The translations under genes and the position numbers were made by a program. Source: a virus. Taken from it: a stretch of DNA of 64,000 nt. This document shows, piece after piece, positions 3,850 through 56,839 of the stretch. Below the pieces are notes generated by a model, which worked only from the letters and a program-made list of their open reading frames with translations, had not been told where the DNA came from and searched no databases. Position 1 is the first letter of the stretch. Each line of letters opens with the position of its first letter. Location: positions 1 through 64,000 of the IMG/VR virus record IMGVR_UViG_3300021960_000047; one strand, 5' to 3'.

Positions 3850-6800
3850 TTATCCTAGAGCAACCGCAAACGCAATTGCTTCGTTGGTTGACGCAAAACT
3901 TGCTGAGTCGGCATTGGCACCTGCTGGTCCAGTTTCTCCTCTTTGTCCTATGGAAGAATATACTTGCCACGTGCTATTTATATAAATGAACTCAATGATA
4001 CTTTGTCCGAGATCAAGTTCAAAATCATCAGCATACCCCTCAATCGTGCTTCCGTTTCTTCCTATAATTAGGGAGTTTGTAGAGAAGTTACCAACATCTA
4101 TGATCTTAACATAATCGCCTGTAGATGGCGATGCTGGGAGAGTAACAGTAAAACTTCCACCAGTGGTATCTGCTGCAATTCTTTGAGAAGAAGTTGCTGT
4201 TACGTTACTGGTTACTGCGGTATAGTTAGTAGAGAAAACACGGAAGTCCGAATCAAATCCAAGATAACTACCGCGCAAGGCACCAAAGTTAAACGTACCC
4301 AATTCAAAAGAAGAATCGTCAAAGTTGATTGTTTGATCTGGTACAGAACTATCTAATCCATCTTGAATCAGATTTGTGAAAACATACCACTCACCGTTTG
4401 TCGCGTCTCTTACAAAACCGCTTCGGCGAATAGTAGAACCACCATCTGTCGAATATCTACCGACGACACCCATATCAACAGTATCTTGAGAATTACTGTC
4501 GGCAACTTTGATGATCGCATTTGTAATACGAAGGTCGTTCTGAGACGTAATATTTTGTGTCCCTTGAACAGTAAAGTCTCCGGTAATGACCAAATCGCCG
4601 TTAATAGTGGCAGCACTAAATTCTACTGAATCTGATGTGCCAACACTTTGTCCGATAGAAATAACACCAGTGCCAGAACTATATGATACACCAGTTCCAG
4701 CAGAGAAATGCGCCCTTGTTTCAGATGCACTTGGTCCTTGGTAAGATATGATTCCAGTAGCAGGATTATAGGAGAGACTTCCGTCTCCTCCACCGTCATT
4801 TACATCGATAGCATTCTTAGCATCAGAGTCTGCACGAGCAGTTGTGTAATACAGATTAGAACCTTCGCTAAGGTTTGTTGTGCTAGAAGCACCCAAATCA
4901 CTATCAAAGCGAGAAGTCGTGTAATATAGATTACTTCCTTCTATTAGATCGCCAGTATTGTGATTGCTAATGTCTGAAACAGTACCAGTTACATCACCAA
5001 TGAAGTTGCCATTCGCTTGAACATTACCAGTAGCAAATATATCAGTACCACGAAGGTTTCCACCGATACCAAGACCACCAACAAGAACTAAAGAACCATT
5101 GGTTTTAGCAGTGGAGTTTGTGGAAGAAAATAGTTTTATATCACCATTACTATCCATGGACACAAGTGCTGTGCCCCCAGATAAATCGTATGGAGATTCT
5201 CCAACATTTTTTCTTATTCTTAATCCGAAGTTATTAGAGGGATACCCAATAACCATCTGGTTTGAGTCAGCAGTTCCAGTAACACCAATATAATGCCTGA
5301 ACTGATTTTTTATCCCAAGGGCAATTGCTGTAGAAGTATTCGCGCTATCGTTGGATGCAAATAAAAATGTGGTATTTTGAGAGTCTCCATAAAACGAGTT
5401 CTCGTTATAAGACAAACCACCGTAGTTTTGCTGGTATGCAACGGTTGACCCAAGAGTTATACTAGTGCTAGCAGAAAGAGTACCAGAAGAAATGCTTGTT
5501 GAAGAAAGGGTATTAATCTTAGCAGAATCATAGGTCAAATCCTGCCCAGATAATTTGGTTATATAACCACCTTGTACATCGACACTATCAGCAGTGATTA
5601 GCGCAAATACAACATTGTCAGTAGTTCCGACTGATTGACCAATCGCAACCTCACCATCGATAATTGTTACACCTGTACCACCAGAAAAATGTGCGCGTGC
5701 TTCAGAGGCAGAAGGACCAGTATAAGTAAAGACACCACTGGCGGCATCATAACCAAACGAACCATCGCCGCCTGCATCAGTAGCAGATACCGCATTCTTT
5801 GCATCAGAGTCTGCACGAGCGGTGGTGTAATAGAGGTTTGTTCCTTCTGCTACATTGGTTGTGGTTTTTGTAGCAAGTCTAACATCAAAGTCGCTATCTG
5901 ACCTTGCGGTTGTGTAATAGAGGTTAGTTGAACCTTCTGATAGTTGATCTGTATTATTGTCACCAAAGTCACTATCAAAGCGAGCAGTCGTGTAATATAG
6001 GTTAGTTCCTTCAGAAACATCGGTAGTGGATTTGGTCGCTAATCTAGTATCAAAATCTGTATTAGCGCGAGCAGTGGTGTAATAAAGATTAGAACCTTCC
6101 GTTAAATTTGATGTGGTTTTTGTAGCAAGTCTATCATCAAAAGCACTATCCGCTCTTGCAGTGGTGTAATAGAGGTTTGTTCCTTCGCTAAGATTTGTAG
6201 TTGACTTTGCAGCGAAGTCAGTATTAAAATCAGAACTGGTATAGTGTTCACCTATGGTTACAGAAAACTGTCCTGTCGCTGAGTCATACGAGAGGTCTCC
6301 AGCAGCAGAAAAGAGTCCTTTAATTTGAGTAGCAGAACGATCTGAGTCTGTGTAAGAAATAACGCCAGTGTTAGCATCATACGACAGGTCGCCAGTAGCA
6401 GAAATAAGCAACCTTACAGCAGAGTCTGTTCTTTGACTATATGAAAATTCGCCAGTAGAGGAATTGTAACTCAGATCGCCCGCAGCAGAAAACAGACCCT
6501 TGATTTGTGCAGCGGTTCTATCAGAATCAGTATAACTAAATGTGCCAGTGGAAGAATTGTAACTCAAGTCTCCGCCAGCAGAGAAAAACCCTCTTATATC
6601 TGCTTGGGTTCTCTGTGTGAAACTGAAAACCCCGTTTACGGAATCATAAGTTAGGTCTCCACTCGCATCAAACAGACCCCTAATTTGTGCAACGGTTCTA
6701 TCAGAATCTGTATAAGAGATGACACCAGTTGCAGAATTATAACTTAGATCGCCATTAACAGAGATAGCATTTTTAGCGTCACTATCTGCTCTTGCAGTGG

Positions 6801-7734
6801 TGTAATAGAGGTTAGTGCCTTCTGTTAAGTCTGAAGTAGACTTCGTTCCAAAGTCAGAGTCAAAGTCAGAGGTTGCATAATTTGTTGTTTCTGTAAAAGA
6901 AAAATCACCAGTGTTGGGGTCATAACTCAGATCTCCAGAAGCAGAAAATAAACCCCTAATTTGTGCGGGGGTTCTATCAGAATCAGTATAACTTATAACA
7001 CCAGTGTCGGGGTCATAACCTATATCACCAGAACCTGATAAAGCATGTCTGGCATCACTGTCAACCCTTCCGAGGGTATAATATAGATTAGTTCCTTCAG
7101 TAAGATCTGATGTAGACTTCGTAGCAAAATCAGAATCAAAATCTGCTTTTACATAGGACGTTACGCCAGATAAACCAGAACCGTCTCCAACAAACGAGTT
7201 GGCGGTTACTGTGCCAGAAAAGTTTGCGGAGTCGCCGCTCAACAAACCTTTTACTGTCATACCTGAAAGAGTTATATAAACTCTTGCGTTAGTGGATGCG
7301 CTTTGAGAAGCAGCGTCTGCTGCTCCGCCATCAGGAACGTCTAAGTAAAACCCAATTCTTCGAACACCAGTGCTATCAGCAGAATCAATAGAAGCGAGCC
7401 AGAGTTCGTCGCTTAGATGCCCCATACCAGATTGTATGGTGTTCGAAGTATACTCGGTGACAAACTTTAATTTGACAGTATCTTCTGGCCAGGAGACAAA
7501 CTGAGAACCAGAACCACCGAGAGATAGAGTTTCTAATATGACTACAGAATCAAAAGACGTACTGGTATTAAAATACTTGGATCCAGTTATAGTTTGACCA
7601 GTAGACTTTGTTACATATTCGTTTGAACCAGTTTTTATATCTGTCAAGTCAGAGTCTAGGGCAAGGAAGTTGGAATCCATCTCATCAAATGTAAGAGCAC
7701 TGCCCTTATTATTTCTTAATGTGAGATCTGCCAT
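3850..7734 (-). CDS. Long repetitive tail fibre protein
   Basis: A 1294-residue protein. The first third has no obvious enzyme domain and starts MADLTLRNNKG. Residues about 200-700 are built from two alternating modules: one centred on STSDLTEGTNLYYTTARAD, the other on GDLSYNSATGVISYTDSDR with a following QIRGLF. The LYYT module occurs roughly ten times and returns near residues 950-1010. The C-terminus has a short collagen-like RGETGPAGANAD and ends EAIAFAVALG. These are hallmarks of trimeric fibres in marine T4-like phages. AAGGA precedes the ATG. The repeats make it a candidate for length variation by recombination. Confidence 0.75.
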   Translation of the reverse strand: MADLTLRNNKGSALTFDEMDSNFLALDSDLTDIKTGSNEYVTKSTGQTITGSKYFNTSTSFDSVVILETLSLGGSGSQFVSWPEDTVKLKFVTEYTSNTIQSGMGHLSDELWLASIDSADSTGVRRIGFYLDVPDGGAADAASQSASTNARVYITLSGMTVKGLLSGDSANFSGTVTANSFVGDGSGLSGVTSYVKADFDSDFATKSTSDLTEGTNLYYTLGRVDSDARHALSGSGDIGYDPDTGVISYTDSDRTPAQIRGLFSASGDLSYDPNTGDFSFTETTNYATSDFDSDFGTKSTSDLTEGTNLYYTTARADSDAKNAISVNGDLSYNSATGVISYTDSDRTVAQIRGLFDASGDLTYDSVNGVFSFTQRTQADIRGFFSAGGDLSYNSSTGTFSYTDSDRTAAQIKGLFSAAGDLSYNSSTGEFSYSQRTDSAVRLLISATGDLSYDANTGVISYTDSDRSATQIKGLFSAAGDLSYDSATGQFSVTIGEHYTSSDFNTDFAAKSTTNLSEGTNLYYTTARADSAFDDRLATKTTSNLTEGSNLYYTTARANTDFDTRLATKSTTDVSEGTNLYYTTARFDSDFGDNNTDQLSEGSTNLYYTTARSDSDFDVRLATKTTTNVAEGTNLYYTTARADSDAKNAVSATDAGGDGSFGYDAASGVFTYTGPSASEARAHFSGGTGVTIIDGEVAIGQSVGTTDNVVFALITADSVDVQGGYITKLSGQDLTYDSAKINTLSSTSISSGTLSASTSITLGSTVAYQQNYGGLSYNENSFYGDSQNTTFLFASNDSANTSTAIALGIKNQFRHYIGVTGTADSNQMVIGYPSNNFGLRIRKNVGESPYDLSGGTALVSMDSNGDIKLFSSTNSTAKTNGSLVLVGGLGIGGNLRGTDIFATGNVQANGNFIGDVTGTVSDISNHNTGDLIEGSNLYYTTSRFDSDLGASSTTNLSEGSNLYYTTARADSDAKNAIDVNDGGGDGSLSYNPATGIISYQGPSASETRAHFSAGTGVSYSSGTGVISIGQSVGTSDSVEFSAATINGDLVITGDFTVQGTQNITSQNDLRITNAIIKVADSNSQDTVDMGVVGRYSTDGGSTIRRSGFVRDATNGEWYVFTNLIQDGLDSSVPDQTINFDDSSFELGTFNFGALRGSYLGFDSDFRVFSTNYTAVTSNVTATSSQRIAADTTGGSFTVTLPASPSTGDYVKIIDVGNFSTNSLIIGRNGSTIEGYADDFELDLGQSIIEFIYINSTWQVYSSIGQRGETGPAGANADSASFASTNEAIAFAVALG

Positions 7735-7780
7735 TATTAGTTTTCCTTGCTAAACTCAATATAAAGGTGCAATTAATGAG

Positions 7781-7800
7781 GGGGGCGATGAGTCGCCCCC
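7781..7800 (-). terminator. GC-rich stem-loop between fibre genes, weak terminator candidate
   Basis: A perfect 8-bp inverted repeat GGGGGCGA / TCGCCCCC with a 4-base loop lies between the stop of the 126-residue gene (7832) and the start of the long fibre gene (7734). No run of T follows it on either strand, so it may instead be a processing or stability hairpin. Its position at a gene boundary is the main support. Confidence 0.4.
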
Positions 7801-7831
7801 AACTAAACTAGGTTCAAAACCAAACTTTGAA

Positions 7832-8212
7832 TCAGCTTGGTGCTTCGTAAGTCAAAGAAGAGATGGTGATCGTGTCGCCAGCACCGATAGCAGTAGACGA
7901 CAAGACGATGTCACCACCACCACCAGTAGCAGTAACAGTGCCATTGAAGCAAGAATCGCCCGCACCGTCGAACACAGTAAACTTACTTACAGTTCCTGCA
8001 TTACAGTCACTGTCGCCTTTAATAGCAGCAGCAGTAGCGATACCATTAGATGCGGCACCGAATGCAGTAGCACTGAAAGTTAGAGTAGCGACAGCAGAGT
8101 CGTTCACCGAACCGTCTTGGAACACAATGGTTCCTGGTCCGCTGACGTCAATTTTGTCTACTACGAGATTAGCGATGTCATTGCGAACATCAGTTGGATG
8201 AGTAACAGCCAT
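7832..8212 (-). CDS. Small virion structural protein, unknown function
   Basis: A 126-residue protein, starting MAVTHPTDVRNDIANLVVDKID and ending ITISSLTYEAPS, with a Gly/Ala/Ser/Thr-rich middle and no membrane segment. An AGGAG Shine-Dalgarno precedes the ATG. It is encoded among fibre genes. Its composition (short beta strands, TVTATGGGGDI) suggests a small capsid- or tail-decorating beta protein. I know of similar small proteins next to fibres in marine T4-like phages but cannot name the family. Confidence 0.5.
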   Translation of the reverse strand: MAVTHPTDVRNDIANLVVDKIDVSGPGTIVFQDGSVNDSAVATLTFSATAFGAASNGIATAAAIKGDSDCNAGTVSKFTVFDGAGDSCFNGTVTATGGGGDIVLSSTAIGAGDTITISSLTYEAPS

Positions 8213-8224
8213 TTTTTATTTCTC

Positions 8225-8368
8225 CTAAAACGTTTTATTTTTTTGATCTTTAGATCGGTCTACAGTTTTTTCTAAATTATCACTAGGCGAAGTTTTTTTG
8301 GTTTCTTTTCTAATGATGTCTGCAACACCAGAAAGTTTTCCTGAATCGCCTTTTGCTCGTATACCCAT
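8225..8368 (-). CDS. 47-residue hypothetical protein
   Basis: A short open frame begins MGIRAKGDSGKLSGVADIIR and is lysine-rich and polar to the end (KNKTF). It fills the gap between the 116- and 126-residue genes. It has AAGGG at about 9 bases before its ATG, and stops 12 bases before the next gene, so it fits the operon. It is basic and probably disordered. A late-promoter octamer directly abuts its ATG (8369-8376). No family recognised. Confidence 0.55.
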   Translation of the reverse strand: MGIRAKGDSGKLSGVADIIRKETKKTSPSDNLEKTVDRSKDQKNKTF

Positions 8369-8376
8369 TATTTATA
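8369..8376 (-). promoter_or_regulatory. T4-type late promoter octamer touching a start codon
   Basis: TATAAATA lies immediately upstream of the ATG of the 47-residue gene. If it is used, transcription would start a few bases inside that gene, so the promoter would serve the 126-residue gene at 7832-8212 rather than the 47-residue gene. It may also be chance sequence between a Shine-Dalgarno and an AATG start. Confidence 0.4.
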
Positions 8377-8394
8377 TCCCTTTTGCTTTACAAA

Positions 8395-8745
8395 TCACTT
8401 CGTTACACTTTTAGAAACCATAAGTTTGCCTTCTAAAACCCTTTCGACTAGAGTGTCTCCACCTTGTTCATATTCTATCTCGATATCATAGACATATCTG
8501 CGCCGAGTTAAAGTTTCTGTTTGAGTATTAGTCAAACTAAATTCTATTATACCATCTGATCTGGGTGATAAGAAACTGACAGAAAAACTAACTGCCTCAC
8601 TAGAGTCTGCATCATAACTTCTATTAAGTTTTCCTCTGGCAGTATAATCTGTCAGATCTCTTTTGGTGCCGTCAGATTCAAGTAGTTTCAATTTCCACTT
8701 GGCATCTGCACCCTGATCTACTTCTAAGTCTTCGTATTGCGCCAT
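8395..8745 (-). CDS. Small beta-rich structural protein next to fibre genes
   Basis: A 116-residue protein, MAQYEDLEVDQGADAKWKLK at the start, with alternating charged and hydrophobic residues suggesting a beta sandwich (VYDIEIEYEQ, ERVLEGKLMVSKSV at the end). The layout recalls N-terminal domains of baseplate upper or fibre adaptor proteins that sit in front of fibres. A late promoter octamer lies 29 bases upstream of the start. The region containing its start codon has been duplicated upstream (see the repeat at 8738-8899). No motif for catalysis is present. Confidence 0.5.
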   Translation of the reverse strand: MAQYEDLEVDQGADAKWKLKLLESDGTKRDLTDYTARGKLNRSYDADSSEAVSFSVSFLSPRSDGIIEFSLTNTQTETLTRRRYVYDIEIEYEQGGDTLVERVLEGKLMVSKSVTK

Positions 8746-8773
8746 TATCGATTAACCTGCTTCTAACGATATT

Positions 8774-8781
8774 TATTTATA
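8774..8781 (-). promoter_or_regulatory. T4-type late promoter octamer, copy 1
   Basis: TATAAATA, 29 bases upstream of the ATG at 8745. This suits recognition by a gp55-type sigma factor with the gp33 coactivator and sliding clamp, and it would drive the 116-residue gene and those beyond. Confidence 0.7.
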
Positions 8782-8871
8782 TAAATTAGTTGGAGACAAT
8801 CTTACTCAGAAGAATTATAATTTTTCGAATATTTTTGCGCCACTATCGATTACCCTGCTTCTAACGATATT

Positions 8872-8879
8872 TATTTATA
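8872..8879 (-). promoter_or_regulatory. T4-type late promoter octamer, copy 2
   Basis: An identical octamer exactly 98 bases upstream of copy 1, within the tandem duplication. It overlaps the very end of the giant repeat gene. It would give a second, longer transcript start for the same downstream genes. Confidence 0.55.
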
Positions 8880-8882
8880 TAT

Positions 8883-11800
8883 TTAGTTGGAGACAATCTT
8901 TTTCTTTTTTGACAAAATTGAGGAAACACCATAGGAACTAGTAGAATTAAACTCTATTGTACCAGTATCTTTCCTCGATTTAATTATAGTTGTTCTTGGT
9001 TTCTGTACCGTGAAACTTCCAGCAAGAGGAATAAGCGCAGAATTTCTGGTAATCGTTACAGTAGCAACCGTAGAAACATCCTGTGCTTCTAGTATGCCAA
9101 CAGCATTTATACTCCTTCGGGCAACAGAGGTAACAGAAGATTCTCCTGCCTCTAAAACAACAGAAGAAGAGATAACCCTTTCAGCAGCACAAACTACTTG
9201 AACATCGACGACTGAAAGTGAACCGGAAGCAACGAGAACACGCTCAGAAACACCAGAGACAACTGAAGTTCCAGATATTACAGAATTTCCACCTTGGTCG
9301 TCAATTTCTCTTTCTGCATTACCAGCAACAGATTCTTCACTCTGTATGTTACCAGAGGCGACCAGAACACGCTCGGCGATGCCAGATAAATTTGCTTCTT
9401 GTGACGTTAATGCGCCAGAAGAAACCAGAACACGTTCGGCAACACCAGAAACGGTTACATTTCCAGAGATAACAGAGTTGCCACCGTTATCGTCTATCTC
9501 ACGTTCAGCGTTACCAGCAACAGACTCTTCGCTCTGGATGTTACCAGAAGCAACTAGGACACGTTCAGAAATACCAGAAACAGTTACATCACCAGAAACG
9601 ACAGAGTTGCCTCCTTGGTCGTCAATTTCTCTTTCTGCATTACCTGCTACCGACTCTTCACTCTGAATGTTGCCCGATCCAGTAATAATACGTTCAGATA
9701 CACCTATTATTATCGAGTCAGAAGCAAATATCGAATTACCTTCGTTATCGTCTATCTCGCGTTCTGCATTACCTGCTACCGACTCTTCACTCTGAATGTT
9801 GCCCGATCCAGTAATAATACGTTCAGAAACACCTGTTATGAGAGAATCTGTGCTTACAAGACCGTTACCACCTTGGTCATCAACAACTCTCTCTGCATTA
9901 CCTGCTACTGATTCTTCACTCTGAATGTTTCCAGAAGCAACCAATACACGTTCGGCAATACCGGAAACTAAGGATGAATCAGAAACTAATGTTCCTCTAC
10001 CAACTTTTGTGAGTTCTGCTTCGCCAGATACTACTGCCTCTTGAGACGCTACTGCGCCAGAAGCAACAATGGTGCGTTCAGCAACACCCAATATTGTTGA
10101 GACACCAACTGACAAGGCATTGCCACCTTGGTCATCAATTTCGCGTTCTGCATTACCTGCTACCGACTCTTCGCTTTGTATGTTTCCAGAAGCAACTAGG
10201 ACACGTTCAGAGATACCAGAAACAACTTCTTCTTGAGATGCCAGCGAACCAGAGGCAACCAATATGCGTTCAGCAATACCAGAAACTGTTACGTCGCCCG
10301 AAGAAATAGAATTACCTTCATTATCGTCTATCTCACGTTCTGCATTACCTGCTACTGATTCTTCGCTCTGGATGTTACCAGAAGCAACTAGGACACGTTC
10401 AGAAATACCAGAAACAATAGAAGTTGTTACTGTTAGAGAATTGCCACCTTGGTCATCTATCTCACGTTCTGCAATACCAGAAACCAGAGAAGCAGTAACT
10501 GTAAGGGAATTACCACCTTGGTCATCTATCTCACGTTCGGCATTACCTGCTACCGACTCTTCACTCTGAATGTTGCCCGATCCAGTAATAGTTCTTTCAG
10601 AGACACCTACTATTATCGAGTCAGAAGCAAATATCGAATTACCTTCGTTATCGTCTATCTCGCGTTCTGCATTACCAGCGACAGATTCTTCGCTTTGGAT
10701 GTTTCCAGAGGCGACAAGAACACGCTCGGAAATACCGAAGAAGACTTCTTCTTGGGATATTAATACACCAGAGGCGACCAATACCCGTTCAGCAACGCCA
10801 GAAACAGTTACATCACCAGAAACGACAGAGTTGCCTCCTTGGTCATCGATTTCTCTTTCTGCATTACCAGCAACAGATTCTTCACTCTGAATATTACCCG
10901 AAGCAACTAGGACACGTCCAGAGATACCAGAAACAAGGGAGTCAGTAACACCGAGAGAATTACCACCTTGGTCGTCTATCTCTCGTTCAGCATTACCAGA
11001 AACAAAAGAACTTGTTACTATTAGGGAATTGCCACCTTGGTCATCGATTTCTCTTTCTGCATTACCAGCGACAGATTCTTCACTCTGTATGTTACCAGAG
11101 GCAACGAGAACACGCTCAGAAACACCAGAGACAACTGAAGTTCCAGATACTAAGGAATTTCCACCTTGGTCATCAACAACTCTCTCTGCATTACCAGCAA
11201 CAGATTCTTCGCCCTGTAAAGAACCTGAAGCAACCAACACACGTTCAGAAACACCAGAGACAACTGAAGTTCCAGATACTAAGGAATTGCCACCTTGATC
11301 ATCAATTTCGCGTTCTGCATTACCTGCTACTGATTCTTCACTCTGAAGAACACCTGAAGCAACCAACACACGTTCAGAGACACCAGAAACAACTGCTTCT
11401 TGAGAAGTTAAAGTGCCAGAAGATACCAAAGACCTTTCAGCAATGGCGGAAACAGTGGAAGATCCGGAAACAAGAGAATTACCACCTTGATCGTCCACTT
11501 CACGTTCTGCATTACCTGCTACTGATTCTTCACCTTGTAGAGCACCAGAAGCAACCAACACACGTTCAGAGACGCCAGAGACAACTGAAGTTCCAGATAC
11601 TAAGGAATTTCCACCTTGGTCGTCGATTTCTCTTTCTGCATTACCAGCGACAGATTCTTCACTCTGTATGTTACCAGAAGCAACTAGCACACGCTCAGAG
11701 ACACCAGAAACAACTGCTTCTTGAGAAGTTAAAGTGCCAGAAGATACCAAAGACCTTTCAGCAATGGCGGAAACAGTGGAAGATCCGGAAACAAGAGAAT

Positions 11801-13760
11801 TACCACCTTGATCGTCCACAACTCTCTCAGCAACACCAGATATGACAGAAACACCAGTTACTAGTGCGTTTCCACCTTGGTCATTGATTTCTCTTTCTGA
11901 TGTGCCAGAGACAACCACTTCCTGAGTTGTTAAAGCACCAGAACTTGTGATTACACGTTCAGCGACACCAGATACAGTTTCTTCTTGAGATACTAATGTT
12001 CCGGAAGTAACCAGAACACGCTCTGCTATACCAGATACAGTTTCTTCTTGAGATACTAAAACCCCAGAACTTGTTACTATACGTTCAGAGACGCCAGAGA
12101 TAACAGAAGATTGAGCAGACAAAGTTCCCGAAGGAACCATAATTCTTTCACCAACGCCATCTACAATTACATTGTCGTCAGACTCAACGCCAGAAACAAC
12201 AGAAACAATTGATCGTTCAGCGTCACCTGCGACTACGGCGATACCAACTTCGTCAGCAGTTAGTTCTGCTTCTATTACAATCGTTTTTACAATAGATACA
12301 GATATATCTGAATTATCTGCTTTAGGTGAACCAGAAGAATTTATGGTCCTTTCAGCAACTCCAGATACTATACTGTCTGAGGTTACTAACGAGACCGAAG
12401 AAGCGATAACACGCTCTGCTATACCAGATACGGTTACATCTTGCGATACTAAAACCCCAGAACTTGTTACTATACGTTCAGCGACACCAGATACAGTTTC
12501 TTCTTGAGATACTAATGCACCAGAACTTGTGATTACACGTTCAGCGACACCAGATACAGTTTCTTCTTGAGATACTAATGCACCAGAACTTGTGATTACA
12601 CGTTCAGCGACACCAGATACAGTTTCTTCTTGAGATACTAATGTTCCGGAAGCAACCAGAATACGCTCTGCTATACCAGATACGGTTACATTTTGAGACA
12701 CTAATGTGCTAGTGCTGTTAATTACTCTTTCTGCAACACCAGATGCTATAGAATCTGTAACAACGAGAGAATTACCGCTTTGGTCGTCTATCTCTCGTTC
12801 ACCAACGCCAGCAACGGATTCTTCACTCTGAAGAACACCTGAAGCAACCAACACACGTTCAGAGACACCAGAAACAACTGCTTCTTGAGAAGTTAAAGTG
12901 CCAGAAGATACCGAAGACCTTTCAGCAATGGCGGAAACAGTGGAAGATCCGGAAACAAGAGAATTGCCACCGTTATCGTCTATCTCGCGTTCTGCATTAC
13001 CAGCGACAGATTCTTCACCTTGTAGGGCACCAGAAGCAACCAATACACGTTCAGAAATACCATCTACTGTAGATGGCGAATCAACTAAAGTTCCAGTGCT
13101 ATTAACGATCCGTTCGGCAACAGCAGATACAGTAGAAGAACCAGAGGCAACAGAGTTTCCTCCTTGATCATCAATTTCTCTCTCACCAATTCCAGCAACA
13201 GATTCTTCACTTTGTATGTTACCAGAGGCAACGAGTACACGTTCAGAAACGCCAGATACAGTTGAAGCACCTGTAGAGAGAGCATTACCACCTTGGTCGT
13301 CGATCTCTCGTTCTGCGTTACCAGCAACAGATTCTTCACCTTGAAGAGCACCAGAACCAGTAATAACACGTTCAGAAACGCCAGAAAGGTCGGAAGTTTG
13401 AGATACTAGAATACCAGTACTGACAATTATTCGTTCAGCAACAGCAGATACAGAAGAGGAACCAGAGGCAACGTTGTTGCCGCCTTGGTCGTCGATCTCT
13501 CGTTCTGCATTACCAGCAATAGATTCTTCGCCTTGAAGAGCACCAGAAGCAACTAGGACACGTTCAGAGATACCAGAAACAGAAGAATTTTGAGACTGTA
13601 AAGAGCCAGAAGCAATTGATGCGACCAATAATGTAGCAACACCAGAAACGCTAGAAGATTGCGACTGTAGTTCTACGGTGAGGGTGTTTATGTCACCGAT
13701 ATATCCATCAGCAACATACCCGTCTACTACATATTTGTCTAGGGTGGCAGAGGAGGCCAA
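8883..13760 (-). CDS. Giant repeat protein, probable fibre or adhesin-like virion protein
   Basis: A 1625-residue protein made almost entirely of 18-21 residue repeats of the form VSGVAERVLVASGxL, alternating with EESVAGNAEREIDDQGGNS. The second block occurs about twenty times. No cysteine-rich, membrane or enzyme segment is seen in the repeats. The unique C-terminus (about residues 1575-1625) is basic, ending KKKKIVSN. The start is TTG at 13760 (preceded by AGGG at 7 bases); there is no in-frame ATG near it. The encoded shape is probably a long beta-fibre. Some DNA repeats are exact (12481-12644), so length variants are expected. Function as a receptor-binding or spacing fibre is inferred from context. 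Confidence 0.65.
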   Translation of the reverse strand: MASSATLDKYVVDGYVADGYIGDINTLTVELQSQSSSVSGVATLLVASIASGSLQSQNSSVSGISERVLVASGALQGEESIAGNAEREIDDQGGNNVASGSSSVSAVAERIIVSTGILVSQTSDLSGVSERVITGSGALQGEESVAGNAEREIDDQGGNALSTGASTVSGVSERVLVASGNIQSEESVAGIGEREIDDQGGNSVASGSSTVSAVAERIVNSTGTLVDSPSTVDGISERVLVASGALQGEESVAGNAEREIDDNGGNSLVSGSSTVSAIAERSSVSSGTLTSQEAVVSGVSERVLVASGVLQSEESVAGVGEREIDDQSGNSLVVTDSIASGVAERVINSTSTLVSQNVTVSGIAERILVASGTLVSQEETVSGVAERVITSSGALVSQEETVSGVAERVITSSGALVSQEETVSGVAERIVTSSGVLVSQDVTVSGIAERVIASSVSLVTSDSIVSGVAERTINSSGSPKADNSDISVSIVKTIVIEAELTADEVGIAVVAGDAERSIVSVVSGVESDDNVIVDGVGERIMVPSGTLSAQSSVISGVSERIVTSSGVLVSQEETVSGIAERVLVTSGTLVSQEETVSGVAERVITSSGALTTQEVVVSGTSEREINDQGGNALVTGVSVISGVAERVVDDQGGNSLVSGSSTVSAIAERSLVSSGTLTSQEAVVSGVSERVLVASGNIQSEESVAGNAEREIDDQGGNSLVSGTSVVSGVSERVLVASGALQGEESVAGNAEREVDDQGGNSLVSGSSTVSAIAERSLVSSGTLTSQEAVVSGVSERVLVASGVLQSEESVAGNAEREIDDQGGNSLVSGTSVVSGVSERVLVASGSLQGEESVAGNAERVVDDQGGNSLVSGTSVVSGVSERVLVASGNIQSEESVAGNAEREIDDQGGNSLIVTSSFVSGNAEREIDDQGGNSLGVTDSLVSGISGRVLVASGNIQSEESVAGNAEREIDDQGGNSVVSGDVTVSGVAERVLVASGVLISQEEVFFGISERVLVASGNIQSEESVAGNAEREIDDNEGNSIFASDSIIVGVSERTITGSGNIQSEESVAGNAEREIDDQGGNSLTVTASLVSGIAEREIDDQGGNSLTVTTSIVSGISERVLVASGNIQSEESVAGNAEREIDDNEGNSISSGDVTVSGIAERILVASGSLASQEEVVSGISERVLVASGNIQSEESVAGNAEREIDDQGGNALSVGVSTILGVAERTIVASGAVASQEAVVSGEAELTKVGRGTLVSDSSLVSGIAERVLVASGNIQSEESVAGNAERVVDDQGGNGLVSTDSLITGVSERIITGSGNIQSEESVAGNAEREIDDNEGNSIFASDSIIIGVSERIITGSGNIQSEESVAGNAEREIDDQGGNSVVSGDVTVSGISERVLVASGNIQSEESVAGNAEREIDDNGGNSVISGNVTVSGVAERVLVSSGALTSQEANLSGIAERVLVASGNIQSEESVAGNAEREIDDQGGNSVISGTSVVSGVSERVLVASGSLSVVDVQVVCAAERVISSSVVLEAGESSVTSVARRSINAVGILEAQDVSTVATVTITRNSALIPLAGSFTVQKPRTTIIKSRKDTGTIEFNSTSSYGVSSILSKKKKIVSN
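12481..12644. repeat. Exact 63-bp tandem repeats inside the giant repeat gene
   Basis: The unit starting GCGACACCAGATACAG recurs at 12481, 12544 and 12607, two full copies and a partial third without a mismatch. It encodes a 21-residue unit (VSGVAERVITSSGALVSQEE type). Weaker copies flank it on both sides. Confidence 0.9.
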
Positions 13761-13794
13761 GGCGAATCCCTATTTTTTTATTATTATCCTCTAT

Positions 13795-14466
13795 TTAGGG
13801 GGTTTCAATTTCCTCGATTAGCATTTCTGACATTTTTCTACCAGTTTCATCACAATTAAACATGAATGCCATTGTACATCTCAAAGAATTAGTACGAGCG
13901 GCATGGTACAGTAACTTATCAGGTTCATCATATGTACCATAATATCCATACTTACATTGCCAACCTTGCACGTCTGGTATTATAATGTGTTCTTTTGTCA
14001 ATGGATCTATATGCTCCCATTGCCCGTCGCCAGTTTCGGACCAAGTAAAGATAATATTGTATCCAGGAGCATTAGCATTATTATGCCAACCTATAAACCC
14101 ACCAGGAGGATAAATGGCACTCAAAGCGCGATTTCTTGCTCCAGACCAAGAACAAAGAGCAGAAACAGAATTTTCAATCTCTTCTAATATTCGGATCTTT
14201 TCTGACGCGTCATTGTATTCAAACTTTCCTACTTGAATATCAACTCCTCTTAGCATCTCAGGATACCCATCATGCTCTCTACCTTTCCAAACAATGTGAT
14301 CAAGATAATCTTTGTTCAACCAATCTTCTGCGTTTTCTTCTCTAGGAATGTTCCTAAGTTTATCCAGATCTATAGACTGTACCGTATTTGATATTGAATG
14401 TAAGATACCTTGCAAAGTTTCATTAGCGATATTTACTGGGTTCATTCCAGGTTTTAAAAAACTCAT
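13795..14466 (-). CDS. 2OG-Fe(II) oxygenase-fold protein with altered metal motif
   Basis: A 223-residue protein with the double-stranded beta-helix pattern of aspartyl/asparaginyl or prolyl hydroxylases: GFIGWHNNAN around residue 128, a beta core NIIFTWSETGDGQWEHID, then YHAARTNSLRCTMAF. His188 and Arg196 fit the distal His and the 2-oxoglutarate Arg. The usual HxD motif reads H128-N-N130, with Asn in place of Asp, so it may be an inactive or altered oxygenase. It lies between a glycosyltransferase and the giant repeat gene, which makes virion fibre proteins possible partners. It overlaps nothing and continues the operon. Confidence 0.6.
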   Translation of the reverse strand: MSFLKPGMNPVNIANETLQGILHSISNTVQSIDLDKLRNIPREENAEDWLNKDYLDHIVWKGREHDGYPEMLRGVDIQVGKFEYNDASEKIRILEEIENSVSALCSWSGARNRALSAIYPPGGFIGWHNNANAPGYNIIFTWSETGDGQWEHIDPLTKEHIIIPDVQGWQCKYGYYGTYDEPDKLLYHAARTNSLRCTMAFMFNCDETGRKMSEMLIEEIETP

Positions 14467-14467
14467 A

Positions 14468-15220
14468 TCAAATGATCTCTATGTCAGATATTTTTCTAGA
14501 TGCTTTGGCGGATAAATGTATCAACGAAGTTCCCTCTGGCATTGGGTGGGTGTGTCTGTTAAGGGAAGTCCAATAGTTCCACCTTAAATCTTCCTCAAAA
14601 ATGCCAACCTTTAGTTCTTTGTACTTAGGTTCTTTCTCAACCAACCACCAAAGAGTGAACTGATCCCAGCATGCTAGTTCTCTGGGGTAATTTTCGGTGT
14701 CCCAAGTAACCCCATCTTCTTTGGTCGGCCACCATTTATTAGCATGTTGTTTGACGTATAATTCGTACCAATCTTTCATAAACTCCATGATAATGTCAGT
14801 TTTTTTATACAAACAAACAGCACCGCAAAGAGTGAAAGTTCCTCCAGGAAATTCCGTGTCCATAAATATATGCCATCTATCTCTAGGCAACCCTGTGAAC
14901 ACCATATCATTATCACCAAGTTCTTCAAAAACATTGGCAATATTTTCACTGATACATGTCATATCGGCGTCGATATAAAAAGTGTTGTCATAGGGGGTTT
15001 GTGACATACCCCAGAGTTTTGCCCTGTAGTGGTTATCGCAAATAATTAAATGATCTGCTTCCTCTGCCCTAGAGTCTAAGAACCTCTCTTCGGTAACAAG
15101 ACAAATGTTTGCTTCTGGGTAATAATCTTTTATATCAGAAATAAGATTGGTTGCCCAAGAATAATATATTGGTTCGTTTGACGCAACGATCAGATATCCA
15201 TTATTTTGATTCGGTTTCAT
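14468..15220 (-). CDS. Glycosyltransferase-like protein (GT-A, DxD) within the fibre region
   Basis: A 250-residue protein. It starts with a Rossmann-like stretch (GYLIVASNEPIYYSW) and has a metal/nucleotide-sugar DxD motif D84-A-D86 in FYIDADMTC. Trp-rich segments follow (KWWPTKEDG, WNYWTSLNRHTHP), and LIHLSAKASRK near the C-terminus fits the His near the acceptor site of GT8-like enzymes. It is flanked by the oxygenase-fold protein and a coiled-coil protein among fibre genes, so it might glycosylate fibres; host glycan modification is equally possible. The substrate sugar cannot be told. Confidence 0.6.
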   Translation of the reverse strand: MKPNQNNGYLIVASNEPIYYSWATNLISDIKDYYPEANICLVTEERFLDSRAEEADHLIICDNHYRAKLWGMSQTPYDNTFYIDADMTCISENIANVFEELGDNDMVFTGLPRDRWHIFMDTEFPGGTFTLCGAVCLYKKTDIIMEFMKDWYELYVKQHANKWWPTKEDGVTWDTENYPRELACWDQFTLWWLVEKEPKYKELKVGIFEEDLRWNYWTSLNRHTHPMPEGTSLIHLSAKASRKISDIEII

Positions 15221-15680
15221 TCAAAGCAAATCCAATACCAAGTTCTTCCATCATAATAAGTTGAGCATATATGTTCAACTCTACTATATTTTTAGATCTG
15301 CGCATTTTACTTTTCAGATCTTTATTTTTGGTATTTTTTATTTCGTCAATTTCGAGCATTTTTATTTTAGCATCGAAGAGTTTTTCAAGTTCTCTTGCTT
15401 GATCTTCTGCCTTTCTACGATGATGCTCTTCGTCTTTCTCTTGCGCTTTGCGCTCTCTTCGCTCTTTTGTGTTTTGATCGATCTTTTCTTCGCCGACCTG
15501 ATCAAGAAGTTCTTCGTAATCTGGATTTGGGTCTCCATCTACATCAAACTTCCTCACAGTCAAGACCTGAGAAATTTCTCTACCTTGCGTATCTGTGATC
15601 ACGAGAATTGCTTCAGCTCGATCTTTACTCTCATCGTGCCAAAAAGCATTGTCTAACCATTTTCTACTGCTATATGCCAT
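15201..15680 (-). CDS. Coiled-coil protein of the fibre region
   Basis: A protein of 159 residues from the ATG at 15680, which has GGAG at 6 bases; a TTG 12 bases further upstream is a worse start. A short N-terminal domain (MAYSSRKWLDNAFWHDESKD) is followed by a long charged helix, about residues 60-130, with EERR-type repeats typical of a coiled coil. The C-terminal tail is hydrophobic (IMMEELGIGFALNETE). It overlaps the following glycosyltransferase by 20 bases. It may be a fibre assembly chaperone or connector, but that is inference from position. Confidence 0.5.
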   Translation of the reverse strand: MAYSSRKWLDNAFWHDESKDRAEAILVITDTQGREISQVLTVRKFDVDGDPNPDYEELLDQVGEEKIDQNTKERRERKAQEKDEEHHRRKAEDQARELEKLFDAKIKMLEIDEIKNTKNKDLKSKMRRSKNIVELNIYAQLIMMEELGIGFALNETESK

Positions 15681-15726
15681 AATATTCTCCAAGTGTTGAC
15701 ATAATTTATTTCGATTTTATATATAG

Positions 15727-18162
15727 TTAAGTTTCAGACACCCTACAATATAGAGTGTATGTTTCTATCGTCTCAGTTGCAGCAACAAGGGTCTGTCCTG
15801 CAAACTGAGAAGAATAAGTATCTGAATAGTTTCTAGAACCAGAATATCCGATTGCCGAGATAAAAGTCCTTTGTCCAGTATATTGAGCAGAATAGTTACG
15901 GGAACCATCATATTGCCCAACTACTGATGCATAGTTTCTAGAACCACCGTATTGATCAACCACAGATGCATAGGTTCTAGAACCACTATAGGCACCAGAA
16001 TACGTTCTTGAACCAGAATAAGCAGAAGAATAGTTTCTAGAACCAGCAAAATCTTGTGCAACTACTCTGGTTCCAGCATATTGGGCAGAATAGTTTCTAG
16101 AACCAGCAAAATCTTGTGCAACTACTCTGGTTCCAGCATATTGGGCAGAGTAGTTTCTAGTTCCATCATACTGCCCTGTTACAGAAGCATAGTTTCTAGA
16201 ACCAGAATAAGCAGCAGCATAGTTTCTAGAACCACCATATTGACCAACTACTGATGCATAATTTCTAGAACCGTCAAAGTTCGCTGGGTTATTTCCAGTA
16301 AAGTTTCCTGGAGTCACCACAACCAGAGGACCCAAACGTTCGCCTGCGTAGGTACCAGCATAGTTGCGAGAACCAGCAAAATTATTAGGTCTGACGCCCT
16401 GAAAGGATCTTCCGCCCAAGAAATTTTCTACTCTAACCACCGTTGCGTCGAAAGTGCCTGGTTCTGCGGGTCCCGCTACTGGCACGACTCTCGTACCAGC
16501 GAAGTTCGCAGGACCAGAAAAGTTTGCTGGGCCAACTCCGTCGTATTTTCTTACACCAGAAAAGTTATCTACGCTGACAGATGGGTTCTTGCCACCACTA
16601 TCAAATGTCACTGAAAAGTTTGCGTTATATCCTCTGGTAAAAGATCTAGATCCAAGATAATTTGTAACACCAGCGAAATTTTGCGGAACTACTCTTGTTC
16701 CCGCGAAGTTCCTAACACCCGCATAGCTTCCTGTATAAGAAACGCTGTATTGGACGTTTGGTGATATAAAATTTTGTACAATTGTGCCTGCAAAGTTGGC
16801 AGTATAATTTCTGCTTCCGCCAAAGTTATTTGCATAATAGGTAAGTACGACATTTTCTCTTGTCCCAGCATACACCGCAGGACGGGTACCAGCATATGAA
16901 GCAGCATAGTTACGGGAACCACCGTAAACTCCAGCATAGTTTCTGGAACCACCATATTGTCCAACTACTGATGCATAGTTTCTTGAACCAGAATAAGCAG
17001 CAGGTCCGTAATTACGAGAACCAGCAAAATCTTGTGCAACTGTTCTGTCTCCAGCATATTGAGCAGAATAGTTTCTAGAACCAGCGAAATCTTGTGCAAC
17101 TGTTCTGTCTCCAGCATATTGAGCAGAATAGTTACGAGAACCATCATATTGTCCAACTACTGATGCATAGTTTCTGGAACCGCCATATTGTCCAACTACT
17201 GACGAATAGGTTCTTGAACCAGAATAAGCACCAGAATAGGTTCTGGAACCAGAATAAGCAGAAGAGTAGTTTCTAGAACCAGCAAAATCTTGTTCAACTA
17301 CTCTGCTTCCAGCATATGAAGCAGCATAGTTTCTTGAACCAGCGAAGTCCCCAGTATACTGTTGTTCTGATAAAGTGTTTCTTGTATCAAGTGCTGTACC
17401 GCGAGCGACCCAAGTACCAGTCTCTCCATTACCAGTAGGAGTTTGAGAGGAAGGTAGTAATAAATAATCGCCAACACCAGAATGTTTTCTGGCATACAAA
17501 ACAGATTGCCTTAGAGAAATCTTTTGATCCGAGTCAGTAAACTCTTGAACTGCCATCGGAGAAGTAGATTTAATTTCTATAATATTATATGTTGGTGAAG
17601 AAGGTTCAACCGCTGTTTCCCTTCTCCAAATACTATAGGTATTTGCTGTTCCGTTTGTTAATGTATCAGAAAATACATCAGAGTCCCATTTTTTCCAGTC
17701 TCCACTAGGCGCAGAAGTTGCAACTCTGAAAGAAAGTCCTGGATATTCGTTAGAGTGTAGTTCCTCTGCTACTCTGGTTGACCATCGTAGGAAAGCAACA
17801 TTGCTCATTTGGTGTAAGTTACCAGAACTGTCTGCTGCTATTGGAAGGTCGTTATAAGGAATGGCAGCAGAGTCATCTAACTGATATATTGTAGTTGTGG
17901 TAGAACCAGTAGACAAAGCACTAGCAGGATGAGTCCCTATTGCTTCGTTATAAAATGTATCAGTGAAACTACCAATGCTGGTAGAGGAAGTTGCATTAGC
18001 AGCAACAGAACCATTATATCGACTTGACTTATTGGCGAAAGATTCAACTACCTTTATACCTGCCTGATACCCAAACCATTCTTCAGAAGCAACAGAAATC
18101 CCCTGAAAGTCTCCAGAGTCGTTTTTCAGAGCCAATGGTATGGATTTGAAAAAGGCAGACAT
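15727..18162 (-). CDS. GSRNY-repeat virion protein, paralogue A
   Basis: An 811-residue protein. The N-terminal third (to about 260) is a unique domain beginning MSAFFKSIPLALKNDSG. Residues about 280-790 consist of roughly 10-12 residue units centred on AGSRNYS, SGSRTYS or GGSRNYASVVGQY. The last residues are ETIETYTLYCRVSET. It is a paralogue of the next gene upstream (18165-20408), sharing N-terminal phrases (SIPL, TFYNEAVG- or TFYNEAIG-like, TGSTTTT, TGTWVARG.ALDTRNT) and the terminal TYTLYCRVSET. No Shine-Dalgarno stands out; translation may be coupled to the paralogue, whose stop is 2 bases away. A fibre or whisker role is likely. Confidence 0.65.
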   Translation of the reverse strand: MSAFFKSIPLALKNDSGDFQGISVASEEWFGYQAGIKVVESFANKSSRYNGSVAANATSSTSIGSFTDTFYNEAIGTHPASALSTGSTTTTIYQLDDSAAIPYNDLPIAADSSGNLHQMSNVAFLRWSTRVAEELHSNEYPGLSFRVATSAPSGDWKKWDSDVFSDTLTNGTANTYSIWRRETAVEPSSPTYNIIEIKSTSPMAVQEFTDSDQKISLRQSVLYARKHSGVGDYLLLPSSQTPTGNGETGTWVARGTALDTRNTLSEQQYTGDFAGSRNYAASYAGSRVVEQDFAGSRNYSSAYSGSRTYSGAYSGSRTYSSVVGQYGGSRNYASVVGQYDGSRNYSAQYAGDRTVAQDFAGSRNYSAQYAGDRTVAQDFAGSRNYGPAAYSGSRNYASVVGQYGGSRNYAGVYGGSRNYAASYAGTRPAVYAGTRENVVLTYYANNFGGSRNYTANFAGTIVQNFISPNVQYSVSYTGSYAGVRNFAGTRVVPQNFAGVTNYLGSRSFTRGYNANFSVTFDSGGKNPSVSVDNFSGVRKYDGVGPANFSGPANFAGTRVVPVAGPAEPGTFDATVVRVENFLGGRSFQGVRPNNFAGSRNYAGTYAGERLGPLVVVTPGNFTGNNPANFDGSRNYASVVGQYGGSRNYAAAYSGSRNYASVTGQYDGTRNYSAQYAGTRVVAQDFAGSRNYSAQYAGTRVVAQDFAGSRNYSSAYSGSRTYSGAYSGSRTYASVVDQYGGSRNYASVVGQYDGSRNYSAQYTGQRTFISAIGYSGSRNYSDTYSSQFAGQTLVAATETIETYTLYCRVSET
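16027..16146. repeat. Exact 60-bp tandem DNA repeat in paralogue A
   Basis: Two consecutive 60-bp copies (16027-16086 and 16087-16146) encode 20-residue units of the AGSRNYSAQYAGTRVVAQDF type. A similar pair with period 60 occurs near 17041-17130. These are hotspots for slippage or unequal recombination. Confidence 0.85.
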
Positions 18163-18164
18163 GA

Positions 18165-21096: not shown

Positions 21097-21328
21097 TTTG
21101 CTTTCCTACCAATCCTTTTATAAGATCTTTGAGTTCTGAGATCTCGTCTTTAAGAGAAGCGAATTCGCTTTCTAGTTTCAATTTATTTTCTTTTTGTTCG
21201 ATTGAAATCGCCTTGCGCCGTCGCGCAAGACGGATCTCCTCTTCATTGGTATTTATAACAGTTCCAGTAGCAAGGTTCTTGTATAAACTACTAGAACCTT
21301 CTACCTTTTTAAAATGCGCTTCAGACAT
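21086..21328 (-). CDS. Small coiled-coil protein
   Basis: An 80-residue protein. The N-terminus MSEAHFKKVEGSSSLYKN is followed by a helical charged segment EEEIRLARRRKAISIEQKE and a leucine-spaced coil (SEFASLKDEISELKDLIKGL) at residues about 50-75. It starts exactly at the stop of the giant baseplate gene and overlaps the fibre gene downstream. It is possibly a trimerisation or assembly factor for the neighbouring structural proteins; no family recognised with confidence. Confidence 0.55.
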   Translation of the reverse strand: MSEAHFKKVEGSSSLYKNLATGTVINTNEEEIRLARRRKAISIEQKENKLKLESEFASLKDEISELKDLIKGLVGKQNGI

Positions 21329-53453: not shown

Positions 53454-54176
53454 TCAAATTCCTGTGGTTGTCGATACTCCTGATTGCACTACGGTGTAGT
53501 ATGGATAGACAACCTTTAGATCAGTTGGAAATAGTTGACGACACATAATAGCGTCGTTTGGCCACATTCCAACTCTCTCCACCTCTTCCAAAAGTTTCTT
53601 GGCAAAATAAGGTTTAATGATGTATGCGCTGTTTCCAGCGATTCCCATCGGTAGAGGTGGGTCAGTCGGTTCATCGATGACGGGTACTCGTTGAATTCCC
53701 TCCCCGTACTTCTCGATTAAACTATGGAACAATCGTCCCTTGCGCGTATTACCTCGCGGGTCATTCAACCCGACTGCGCCCCATTTGTCGGAGAGATCCT
53801 CAACAGAGAATTCCCTCACGAACCTTGCATCGTGCTCAAGAACAAGAATTGGTCCTTCTTGTTCAGCACATAACTTCCATAATCGATAGTGACTTAATGC
53901 GCAAGCAACTACTCGATCTTGTGCTTTTGCTGGATAGTATTTCTTATACAACCCAGTCGTTAAATCTAATCCGTCTTGGTTAGGAGAACTTGGCCATGTC
54001 CAAGGAACCTGTTTGCCAAATACTTCCCCTGTATGATTATATATATTTTTCGGTTGTGTCGCTTCAAAGAACTCAACAGCGATATTCGCGCAATGTTCTT
54101 TCACAGATTCAGCGGCAACCTCTGCTCTACTCACAGAAGAATCATTGTCGCTCATTGTGATGATATATGCTCTCAT
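53454..54176 (-). CDS. Glycosyltransferase family 25-like protein
   Basis: A protein of 240 residues from the ATG at 54176 (MRAYIITMSDNDSSVSRAEV), with TAGGGC before it; ten upstream residues in the open frame are not needed. CALSHYRLWKLCAEQEGPIL and VLEHDARF are the GT25 core, and the C-terminal half has GNSAYIIKPYFAKKLLEEVE. It is followed by a close paralogue. Two such enzymes in a row suggest sequential addition of similar sugars. Confidence 0.65.
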   Translation of the reverse strand: MRAYIITMSDNDSSVSRAEVAAESVKEHCANIAVEFFEATQPKNIYNHTGEVFGKQVPWTWPSSPNQDGLDLTTGLYKKYYPAKAQDRVVACALSHYRLWKLCAEQEGPILVLEHDARFVREFSVEDLSDKWGAVGLNDPRGNTRKGRLFHSLIEKYGEGIQRVPVIDEPTDPPLPMGIAGNSAYIIKPYFAKKLLEEVERVGMWPNDAIMCRQLFPTDLKVVYPYYTVVQSGVSTTTGI

Positions 54177-54736
54177 TTTTGCCCTATGAATACGTGATCT
54201 TTCCAACGAGCAGAGCGTTCAACTCCAGGAGATATCCACTGAGCATCCGGACTTTGTTCCCATTCTTTACCATCATCAATCCAATCAGCAATCACCTTTA
54301 AGTCGCACTCTTTTGCAATTGCTTTAAACGAGTCTCTATAAAATCGCCAACAGTCTGGGTTGTCGTGAGTGGGTCCACTAGAAGGTGCGATAATCACCAT
54401 GTAATGCTCTGGTTTGAGAACTCGAGTCAATTCTGCTGCTGCCCTAAATGGATTGTAGATATGCTCAAATGTTTGCCCCGATACAATAAAGTCTATCGAA
54501 TTGTCTTCAAAAGGTAACTCATACGGTCCAGGCATTTTGTGAGTAACATTACCACCCTCGTTTATATCTGCGATGTAATAGTTTTCGCAAACATCTTCGA
54601 ATATTGGTCGATAAGTGCGGTCTTGTCCAGGTTTTATATTTCTACCGCCAAGGTCTAGTATCGTCAACCCACTACCGAGTCGAGAACCTAAAAGGTCTCT
54701 CGCCCTCTTCATATTTTCTCTAGAAGAAGGGTGCAC
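54173..54736 (-). CDS. SAM-dependent methyltransferase, class I
   Basis: A 187-residue protein with a GTG start at 54736, GAGG 7 bases before. Motif I ILDLGGRN at residues 25-32, an acidic loop YIADINEG, motif IV-like DFIVSGQTFEHIYNP, and AAELTRVLKPEHYMVIIAPS. It resembles Methyltransf_11. The acceptor is unknown; in this cassette a sugar hydroxyl or amino group is plausible. It begins in the overlap of the other methyltransferase (TAGTG). Confidence 0.65.
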   Translation of the reverse strand: MHPSSRENMKRARDLLGSRLGSGLTILDLGGRNIKPGQDRTYRPIFEDVCENYYIADINEGGNVTHKMPGPYELPFEDNSIDFIVSGQTFEHIYNPFRAAAELTRVLKPEHYMVIIAPSSGPTHDNPDCWRFYRDSFKAIAKECDLKVIADWIDDGKEWEQSPDAQWISPGVERSARWKDHVFIGQK

Positions 54737-55341: not shown

Positions 55342-55343
55342 AA

Positions 55344-56824: not shown

Positions 56825-56839
56825 AATGATACCAAAGGG

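Follow-up and report, generated by a model that had tools for sequence, protein, structure and literature searches.

The window analysed here, a 64,000-nucleotide stretch of viral DNA, carries on its minus strand a 1625-codon gene (8883..13760) made up largely of short repeats. We consider it rather probable, though far from certain, that its product forms the shaft of a virion fibre encoded in a host-recognition cluster, and that the gene evolves by intragenic recombination and cassette exchange. The evidence comes from exact DNA repeats within the gene, from its comparison with relatives in IMG/VR and from its genomic surroundings.

Organization of the repeat gene

The gene comprises 1625 codons plus a stop codon and starts with TTG. 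The coordinates and the length of 1625 residues given in the original prediction were borne out, the open reading frame running from 13760 to 8883 on the minus strand. The frame opens only three codons upstream of the TTG in the window and one to three codons upstream of it in the relatives L002 to L010. Moreover, TTG-GCN-TC, followed by the same subsequent residues, occurs at the same position in 14 of the 14 relatives whose contigs include the 5' end of the gene (L002 to L010 and L017 to L021), several of which are near-identical copies of one another. Because the frame opens barely 5' of the TTG and because this codon is conserved in all these relatives, it is very probably the true start of the gene. 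It had been called unusual, and its conservation shows that it is no oddity of the window gene. Antisense open reading frames within the gene (e.g. 11012-11845 on the plus strand, 277 aa) were dismissed as shadow frames of the repetition.

About 91% of the protein consists of a repeat array (9177..13622, minus strand), in line with the claim that nearly all of it is repeats. The array contains about 70 very acidic units, most of which terminate in (A/S)ER, and the units measure 20, 21 or 23 residues rather than the 18-21 given earlier. Among the 66 gaps separating 67 AER-like anchors, 25 are of 23 residues, 20 of 20 residues and 19 of 21 residues, with one of 45 and one of 42. Typical units are VLVASGNIQSEESVAGNAER (20 residues), VITSSGALVSQEETVSGVAER (21 residues) and EIDDQGGNSLVSGTSVVSGVSER (23 residues). 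A conserved N-terminal block with invariant columns (about residues 1-45; 13626..13760, minus strand) is likely the attachment end, and 22 of the 28 columns that are invariant in an alignment of seven sequences fall within the first 57 residues. The conserved C-terminal block (8883..9176, minus strand), with the motif PL..F...K, is basic, and the window and L002 have a longer version of it than the seven other sequences aligned. By a simple count, the net charge of the protein is -152, and its final 80 residues are basic.

Relatives of the repeat protein

A scan of IMG/VR recovered ten loci on ten contigs. A search with an N-terminal profile added L017 and L018 to L021, which are four copies of one phage, and a search with a C-terminal profile added one more contig, L032, whose product is 35% identical. 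No further contig was obtained with L018 as the query. The relatives thus amount to 16 IMG/VR contigs in total, all of them assembled from metagenomes, where assembly can go wrong in repeats. Complete members span 1050 to 1795 residues, and in L008, L011 and L017 the contig end cuts the array.

Searches of other collections were made with several queries. Among 50,697 phage records, which include HTVC008M and Mosig, tblastn found no match to the window protein (E 1e-5) or to its first 164 residues (E 10), with low-complexity masking possibly to blame, and none at E 0.1 to the less repetitive relative L018. The L006 protein matched 363 phage records. The best 30 of these 363 cover 12-20% of the query, between residues 678 and 1356, and were rejected as relatives of the repeats since they sit around two inserted stretches. 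These inserts of the L006 repeat protein (gene at L006:1644-6245; inserts at about residues 759-860 and 1135-1246) match phrog_677, which is annotated as 'baseplate wedge tail fiber protein connector', or phrog_9158. By the spacing of their His/Cys/His/Met residues they have a plastocyanin-like appearance, which no profile search supported. Prokaryote genomes (84,980) were scanned with a sequence pattern, a method that limits the reach of the search; this gave 50 pattern matches and no relative.

The repeats gave no Pfam match above the cut-off, and their PHROG matches were weak and to unnamed families. Likewise, no binding domain of the window protein was recognised with Pfam or PHROG. Three weak Pfam matches of L007, all under the cut-off (best E 0.0092), were disregarded. 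The repeat family was also absent from the literature found by searching, subscription journals being mostly outside the coverage. Taken together, these searches point to a candidate tail-protein family without a counterpart among the Pfam families, named PHROGs and phage records searched.

Exact DNA repeats and selection on the units

The exact 63-bp DNA repeats that had been reported are present and are longer than claimed. The gene contains seven exact pairs of at least 63 bp (125, 107, 96, 73, 66, 66 and 64 bp) and 40 pairs of at least 30 bp. The first copy of the 125-bp repeat lies at 11695..11819 and the second, offset by 321 bp, at 11374..11498 (both minus strand). The 107-bp repeat (12474..12643, minus strand) overlaps itself at a period of 63 bp, i.e. 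in units of 21 residues, and the 96-bp repeat (12817..12912, minus strand) has its partner copy 1485 bp away at 11332-11427. When synonymous codons were shuffled 30 times with the protein fixed, the longest exact repeat had a mean length of 28 bp and a maximum of 41 bp, and there was a mean of 0.3 exact pairs of at least 30 bp. Because the observed repeats exceed these lengths, their identity is a DNA-level signal and not merely a reflection of protein repetition.

The most frequent identical unit, of 20 residues, occurs in eight copies, no two of them encoded by the same DNA: the eight versions show 3-15 differences over their 60 positions. Some of the repetition is therefore old and maintained by protein-level selection. 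Among the window units, mean dN divided by mean dS was 0.07 for the 20-residue, 0.36 for the 21-residue and 0.28 for the 23-residue units, after saturated pairs (36, 12 and 62, respectively) had been dropped from the mean dS. In three pairs of genes, dN/dS was 0.23, 0.28 and 0.34. These ratios show purifying selection on the protein, which would keep the array functional.

Recombination within the array

The protein of L002 has 1795 residues versus 1625 in the window, the two genes differing in length by exactly 510 bp. In L002, a 77-bp exact repeat occurs twice, at a spacing of exactly 510 bp; it ranks second in length among the 48 exact pairs of at least 30 bp in that gene. In the window, both copies have a single counterpart (12856..12932, minus strand), and the 510 bp that they flank in L002 are absent. 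Once the 510 bp between the repeat copies are removed from L002, its gene differs from that of the window at 182 positions in 4878 bp, i.e. the genes are 96.3% identical. Because the length difference equals the spacing of the direct repeat at the junction, one 510-bp deletion explains it entirely. The change of length by recombination that had been predicted is thus supported by one natural pair, the single phage pair in which a length difference was found to equal the spacing of direct repeats at its junction.

Three of the extra L002 units, of the IITGSGTLVSSDVTVSGVSER type, differ from their best window counterpart at 18-20 of 63 positions, and the remaining extra units show 0-5 differences from existing window units. 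As these three units have no close match in the window, tandem duplication of window sequence is insufficient to account for the whole insert. Either the window lineage lost 510 bp or L002 gained part of them from another array; loss is simpler, and is the direction that we infer.

A second kind of change leaves the length intact. Within the window copy at 11374..11498, a 60-bp stretch has 17 mismatches to its L002 counterpart and none to the copy at 11695-11819 in the same gene. The homogenisation that had been put forward as a cause of the exact repeats is supported by this stretch, for which non-allelic overwriting can be regarded as shown at one place. Divergent stretches were assigned to overwriting when they had at most one mismatch to a paralogue and at least four fewer than to the orthologue. 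This rule singled out 2 of the 12 divergent stretches between the window and L002, one of the two lying at the deletion junction, and none of the five between L003 and L004 or of the eight between L006 and L009. Another stretch, at gene position 3921, has 12 differences from L002 and 2 from another place in the window; it falls outside the rule, and overwriting is suggested there. As judged by this rule, overwriting is demonstrated for no lineage other than window/L002. Exact repeats, too, abound in that lineage: pairs of at least 45 bp number 18 and 21 there and 0-1 in each other member examined.

The array was predicted to be fast-evolving, and as regards length this was not what the other relatives showed. 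The gene is identical in L018, L019, L020 and L021, which derive from four IMG datasets, its length is equal within L004/L005 and within L006/L010, and L008/L009 have no net indel as far as the L008 contig end. No length polymorphism was thus seen in these four near-identical sets, all of which lie outside the window/L002 lineage, and the pairs L003/L004 (97.8% identical) and L006/L009 (97.6%) differ in length by one codon. On the time scale sampled by these contigs, length change is not a frequent event in the other clades. Since these clades have 0-1 exact pairs of at least 45 bp and no overwriting signal, only the window/L002 lineage may be unstable in this way.

Genomic context

Among the neighbours of the repeat gene are matches to baseplate wedge, tail-fibre-assembly and virion structural families. 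C48C1 was the best-scoring named record for the baseplate wedge protein nearby, and cyanophage and pelagibacter phages came next with similar scores. Judged from its genes, the source is a T4-like marine phage related to pelagimyophages. A psbA-type protein was absent from G000, the 84-kb (incomplete) record of the window, and from G001, a 151-kb relative, which lowers the likelihood of a cyanophage host.

A gene for a VrlC-like baseplate protein (21328..27018, minus strand) lies upstream of the repeat gene; its product and the protein annotated VrlC in HTVC008M share 27% identity across 645 columns (E 3e-45, a comparison of two sequences). In L003, a gene matching head closure Hc2 (phrog_460) is found downstream of the repeat gene, and L009 has the same order. 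The repeat gene was thus located between VrlC, seen in the window, and the neck genes, seen in L003 and L009. The window record stops 8.9 kb downstream of the repeat gene, ahead of any neck gene, and the right boundary of the cluster therefore rests on these relatives. In pelagimyophages, the interval from VrlC to the neck genes is the host recognition cluster, according to the available part of the report (PMC7029224), so that the VrlC-like gene would form its left boundary here. The present locus resembles that cluster in its location between VrlC and neck, in its variable tail-fibre genes and in the nearby glycosyltransferase-like genes, which were recognised here by eye; it differs in that the present repeat family is undescribed in the part of the report available (PMC7029224).

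Upstream of the repeat gene, on the left side of the slot that it occupies, lies a gene for a 223-aa protein without Pfam or PHROG match (13795..14466, minus strand). From its motif, we presume this protein to be 2OG-Fe(II)-oxygenase-like. It is followed upstream by a gene of the same operon for a 250-aa protein (14468..15220, minus strand), glycosyltransferase-like by eye and without Pfam match, and by a conserved 163-aa operon gene (15201..15692, minus strand) that is 39.6% identical to its C48C1 counterpart. The glycosyltransferase-like and 2OG-oxygenase-like genes (13795-15220, minus strand; both assigned by eye) adjoin fibre genes in carriers and non-carriers of the repeat gene, and their products might modify fibres or the host surface.

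Farther upstream, two more repeat-rich proteins, of 811 and 747 residues, have SRNY-type repeats (15727..20408, minus strand). The first of their genes contains exact tandem repeats of 63 and 47 bp, 29 exact 30-mers are common to both, and these two genes may recombine too. C48C1 encodes one protein of about 3300 residues related to both. Elsewhere in the window, genes for a family 25 glycosyltransferase, a sulfotransferase and a carbamoyltransferase are grouped in one cluster (53454-58393, minus strand), perhaps a sugar-modification set.

Cassette exchange and the slot

The similarity to L002 extends beyond the repeat gene. In an alignment of window positions 22000-5501 with L002, of which the first 1200 L002 bases have no window counterpart and were left uninterpreted, the two phages have in common a cassette of 6.6 kb (7221..13800, minus strand) with segments that are 93-99.7% identical. 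Besides the repeat gene, the cassette contains the gene for a 116-aa small tail protein (8395..8745, minus strand), which matches phrog_1084 and phrog_3304 ('L-shaped tail fiber protein assembly'), that for a 126-aa homologue of a virion structural protein (7832..8212, minus strand; phrog_3758), which co-occurs with the repeat gene, and the 5' part, to about 7221, of a gene for a structural or fibre-like protein of 1294 residues (3850..7734, minus strand; phrog_697). The 40 bp directly 5' of the TTG are identical at 39 of 39 aligned bases, and identity falls from about position 7220, inside the 1294-aa gene. Outside the cassette, six upstream genes are 66-81% identical, and the stretch aligned downstream (7099-5501) is 69% identical. 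This pattern is consistent with cassette exchange between phages, which may be taken as shown for this one pair.

The fibre-like 1294-aa gene is itself chimeric, with a 5' part shared with L002 and an aligned remainder of about 69% identity. At the junction of the repeat gene with the next gene, a tandem duplication with an offset of about 98 bp (8737..8900, minus strand) comprises the tail of the repeat gene, the TATAAATA motif, which we take to be late-promoter-like, and the start of the next gene, and leaves a false start of 13 codons. The same duplication is found in L002, and the corresponding segment is single-copy in L003, L009 and L018.

Loci carrying the slot were gathered by means of the oxygenase-like gene, and 80 of 165 were analysed. 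The repeat gene comes next in 13 of them, the slot is empty in eight, and the neighbourhood is different in 56; as for the remainder, L034 ends within the start of the repeat gene, L054 ends, and L094 has neither. In the eight empty loci, four of which (L049-L052) have one common arrangement, and in phage C48C1, the 116-aa gene directly follows the oxygenase-like gene. In all 12 of the 13 carriers with a long enough contig, the repeat gene is followed by the 116-aa, 126-aa and 1294-aa-like genes; these 12 include near-identical copies and represent about five lineages, not independent cases. The variability relative to surrounding genes that is looked for in host-recognition fibre genes was thus found in one exchanged pair and in the empty slots.

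A tree of upstream genes was built from the window, 6 of the 13 carriers, C48C1 and seven rows labelled non-carrier, among them L094, which has no 116-aa gene in view and is not strictly an empty slot; L047 contributed just one of the three upstream genes. In this unrooted tree, the carriers form one group (local support 0.98) inside the non-carriers. The tree of the 116-aa protein has a long branch to the carriers. The simplest reading, given that the tree is unrooted, would be that the repeat gene was acquired once, along with a replacement of the module downstream of it.

Structure models

AlphaFold2 models of the first 250 and the last 320 residues had mean pLDDT values of 59.6 and 61.4, respectively, the blocks that make up residues 1-170 of the C-terminal piece averaging 68-83. 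Both models consist wholly of beta structure that recurs about once per unit, at low confidence. In Foldseek searches of the PDB, neither model had a match at E 0.001 or better, the N-terminal model giving 110 matches at E 10 or better and none at 0.001. A Foldseek search of viral models gave 212 matches at E 10 or better, the best being a ranavirus protein (E 1.4e-3, rmsd 11.9 Å), and was left unused. With VIA-align, the C-terminal model was superposed on 12 chains, P22 tailspike included, at Z 10.3-24.9 (top five 17.5-24.9), and such placements may reflect only the common arrangement of a repeat model. A sequence profile compared with known structures had one match, 3zmf (E 0.33), taken as chance. 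From these models, the array units are probably beta-rich, a parallel beta-helix or beta-solenoid being one candidate fold.

Proposed function and alternative explanations

The host-contact fibre envisaged in the original prediction is plausible, given the genomic position of the gene and the published definition of the host recognition cluster; virion presence, fibre identity and host contact are all inferred from this position and from the companion genes. The fixed N-terminal block would serve for attachment and the fixed C-terminal block as a tip or cap, and these two ends would bracket some 70 short units forming the shaft of a tail or side fibre. Such a gene could vary in three ways. Recombination between direct repeats would remove or add whole in-frame units, as in one contig pair; one unit would overwrite another with the length unchanged, as in one place and possibly a second; and the gene would be swapped as a cassette with the small tail gene, the virion-protein gene and the 5' fibre-like part. 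A bolder version, possible and yet doubtful, holds that the array is a contingency fibre in which the roughly 70 near-equivalent acidic units serve as recombination substrates, so that populations would keep generating new lengths and unit orders, homogenise them by non-allelic conversion and trade arrays and companion genes even with phages that are 19-34% divergent in the DNA of their upstream tail genes. If true, this would make the gene a phage counterpart of variable-number repeat adhesins without reverse transcriptase. A diversity-generating retroelement was also considered; the reverse transcriptase profile PF00078 was unmatched in G000 (84 kb, incomplete) and G001 (151 kb).

It might be argued that the length difference and some of the exact repeats are assembly artefacts, a short-read assembler having collapsed 510 bp or copied units. 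The collapse of a repeat does look like a deletion between direct repeats, the relatives come from metagenome contigs throughout, and three of these contigs begin or end inside the array. However, the window contig separates exact repeats of 125, 107 and 96 bp, all longer than the 77-bp repeat at the junction, and near-identical phages from separate datasets agree in length in four sets, which makes an artefact improbable. A baseplate or neck structural protein in which the array is a length-tolerant repetitive spacer, i.e. weakly constrained filler with no part in host recognition, would fit the acidic low-complexity composition, the wide range of lengths among the relatives and the lack of a recognised binding domain. 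Against this stand the dN/dS values of 0.23-0.34, the location among fibre-like genes, the exchange of the gene as a cassette when the upstream genes are not exchanged, and the match of the inserts in the L006 clade to a baseplate wedge-tail fibre connector family, so that we regard a spacer as unlikely.

The units of 20-23 residues with a QGGN motif resemble the repeats of curli, and a curli-like beta-solenoid fibre secreted from the infected cell, rather than a part of the virion, was also weighed. Among PDB entries, a CsgA curli subunit is the best match to the C-terminal model (Foldseek E 0.14; VIA Z 24.9 over 309 residues, rmsd 9.2 Å), and pelagimyophages encode CsgF and CsgG, as stated in the available part of the report (PMC7029224). 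Nevertheless, CsgA is one of 12 chains on which the model was superposed, every one of them exceeding Z 10. The gene also sits in the tail region of the genome, and its product has no strongly hydrophobic N-terminal stretch (19-residue maximum of 1.45 in the first windows). Furthermore, CsgG and the curlin repeat (PF07012) were unmatched in G000 (84 kb, incomplete) and G001 (151 kb), and HTVC008M matched both; the E. coli control matched the PF07012 profile. A secreted curli-like fibre is thus very hard to sustain, and the shaft of a virion fibre is the reading that we prefer.

Comparison with known systems and significance

In T4, duplications of small domains in the tail-fibre adhesin are said to have changed host range (Tetart et al., 1996, going by the title of that work); the likeness to the present gene, that of domain duplication within a fibre gene, is one of description only. 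In the Enterococcus phage EfV12-phi1, 1.8-kb tandem duplications arose in a putative tail-fibre gene during coevolution with the host, according to the available part of the report (PMC6365445). EfV12-phi1 and the present phage both show in-frame copy-number change within a putative tail-fibre gene; the segment there is 1.8 kb long, whereas here there are about 70 units of 60-69 bp and a natural, deletion-type change known from sequence alone. The Alteromonas phages A5 and V22 share host-recognition modules in otherwise unlike genomes, as the accessible text describes (PMC10579305). Here too a fibre and a companion gene are common to different phages; the fibre-chaperone pair was tested in that system, whereas the present locus has only a phrog_3304-like neighbour, and the two are likened by description. 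Copy-number change in fibre genes and the sharing of host-recognition modules between phages are thus already known, as far as the available parts of these reports go.

What the present locus adds is a natural example, at base-pair resolution, of unit loss, unit overwriting and cassette swap at one locus in uncultured marine phages. If the protein is indeed present in the virion and contacts a receptor, the gene would offer a tractable case of recombination-driven fibre variation in phages in which no reverse transcriptase was found.
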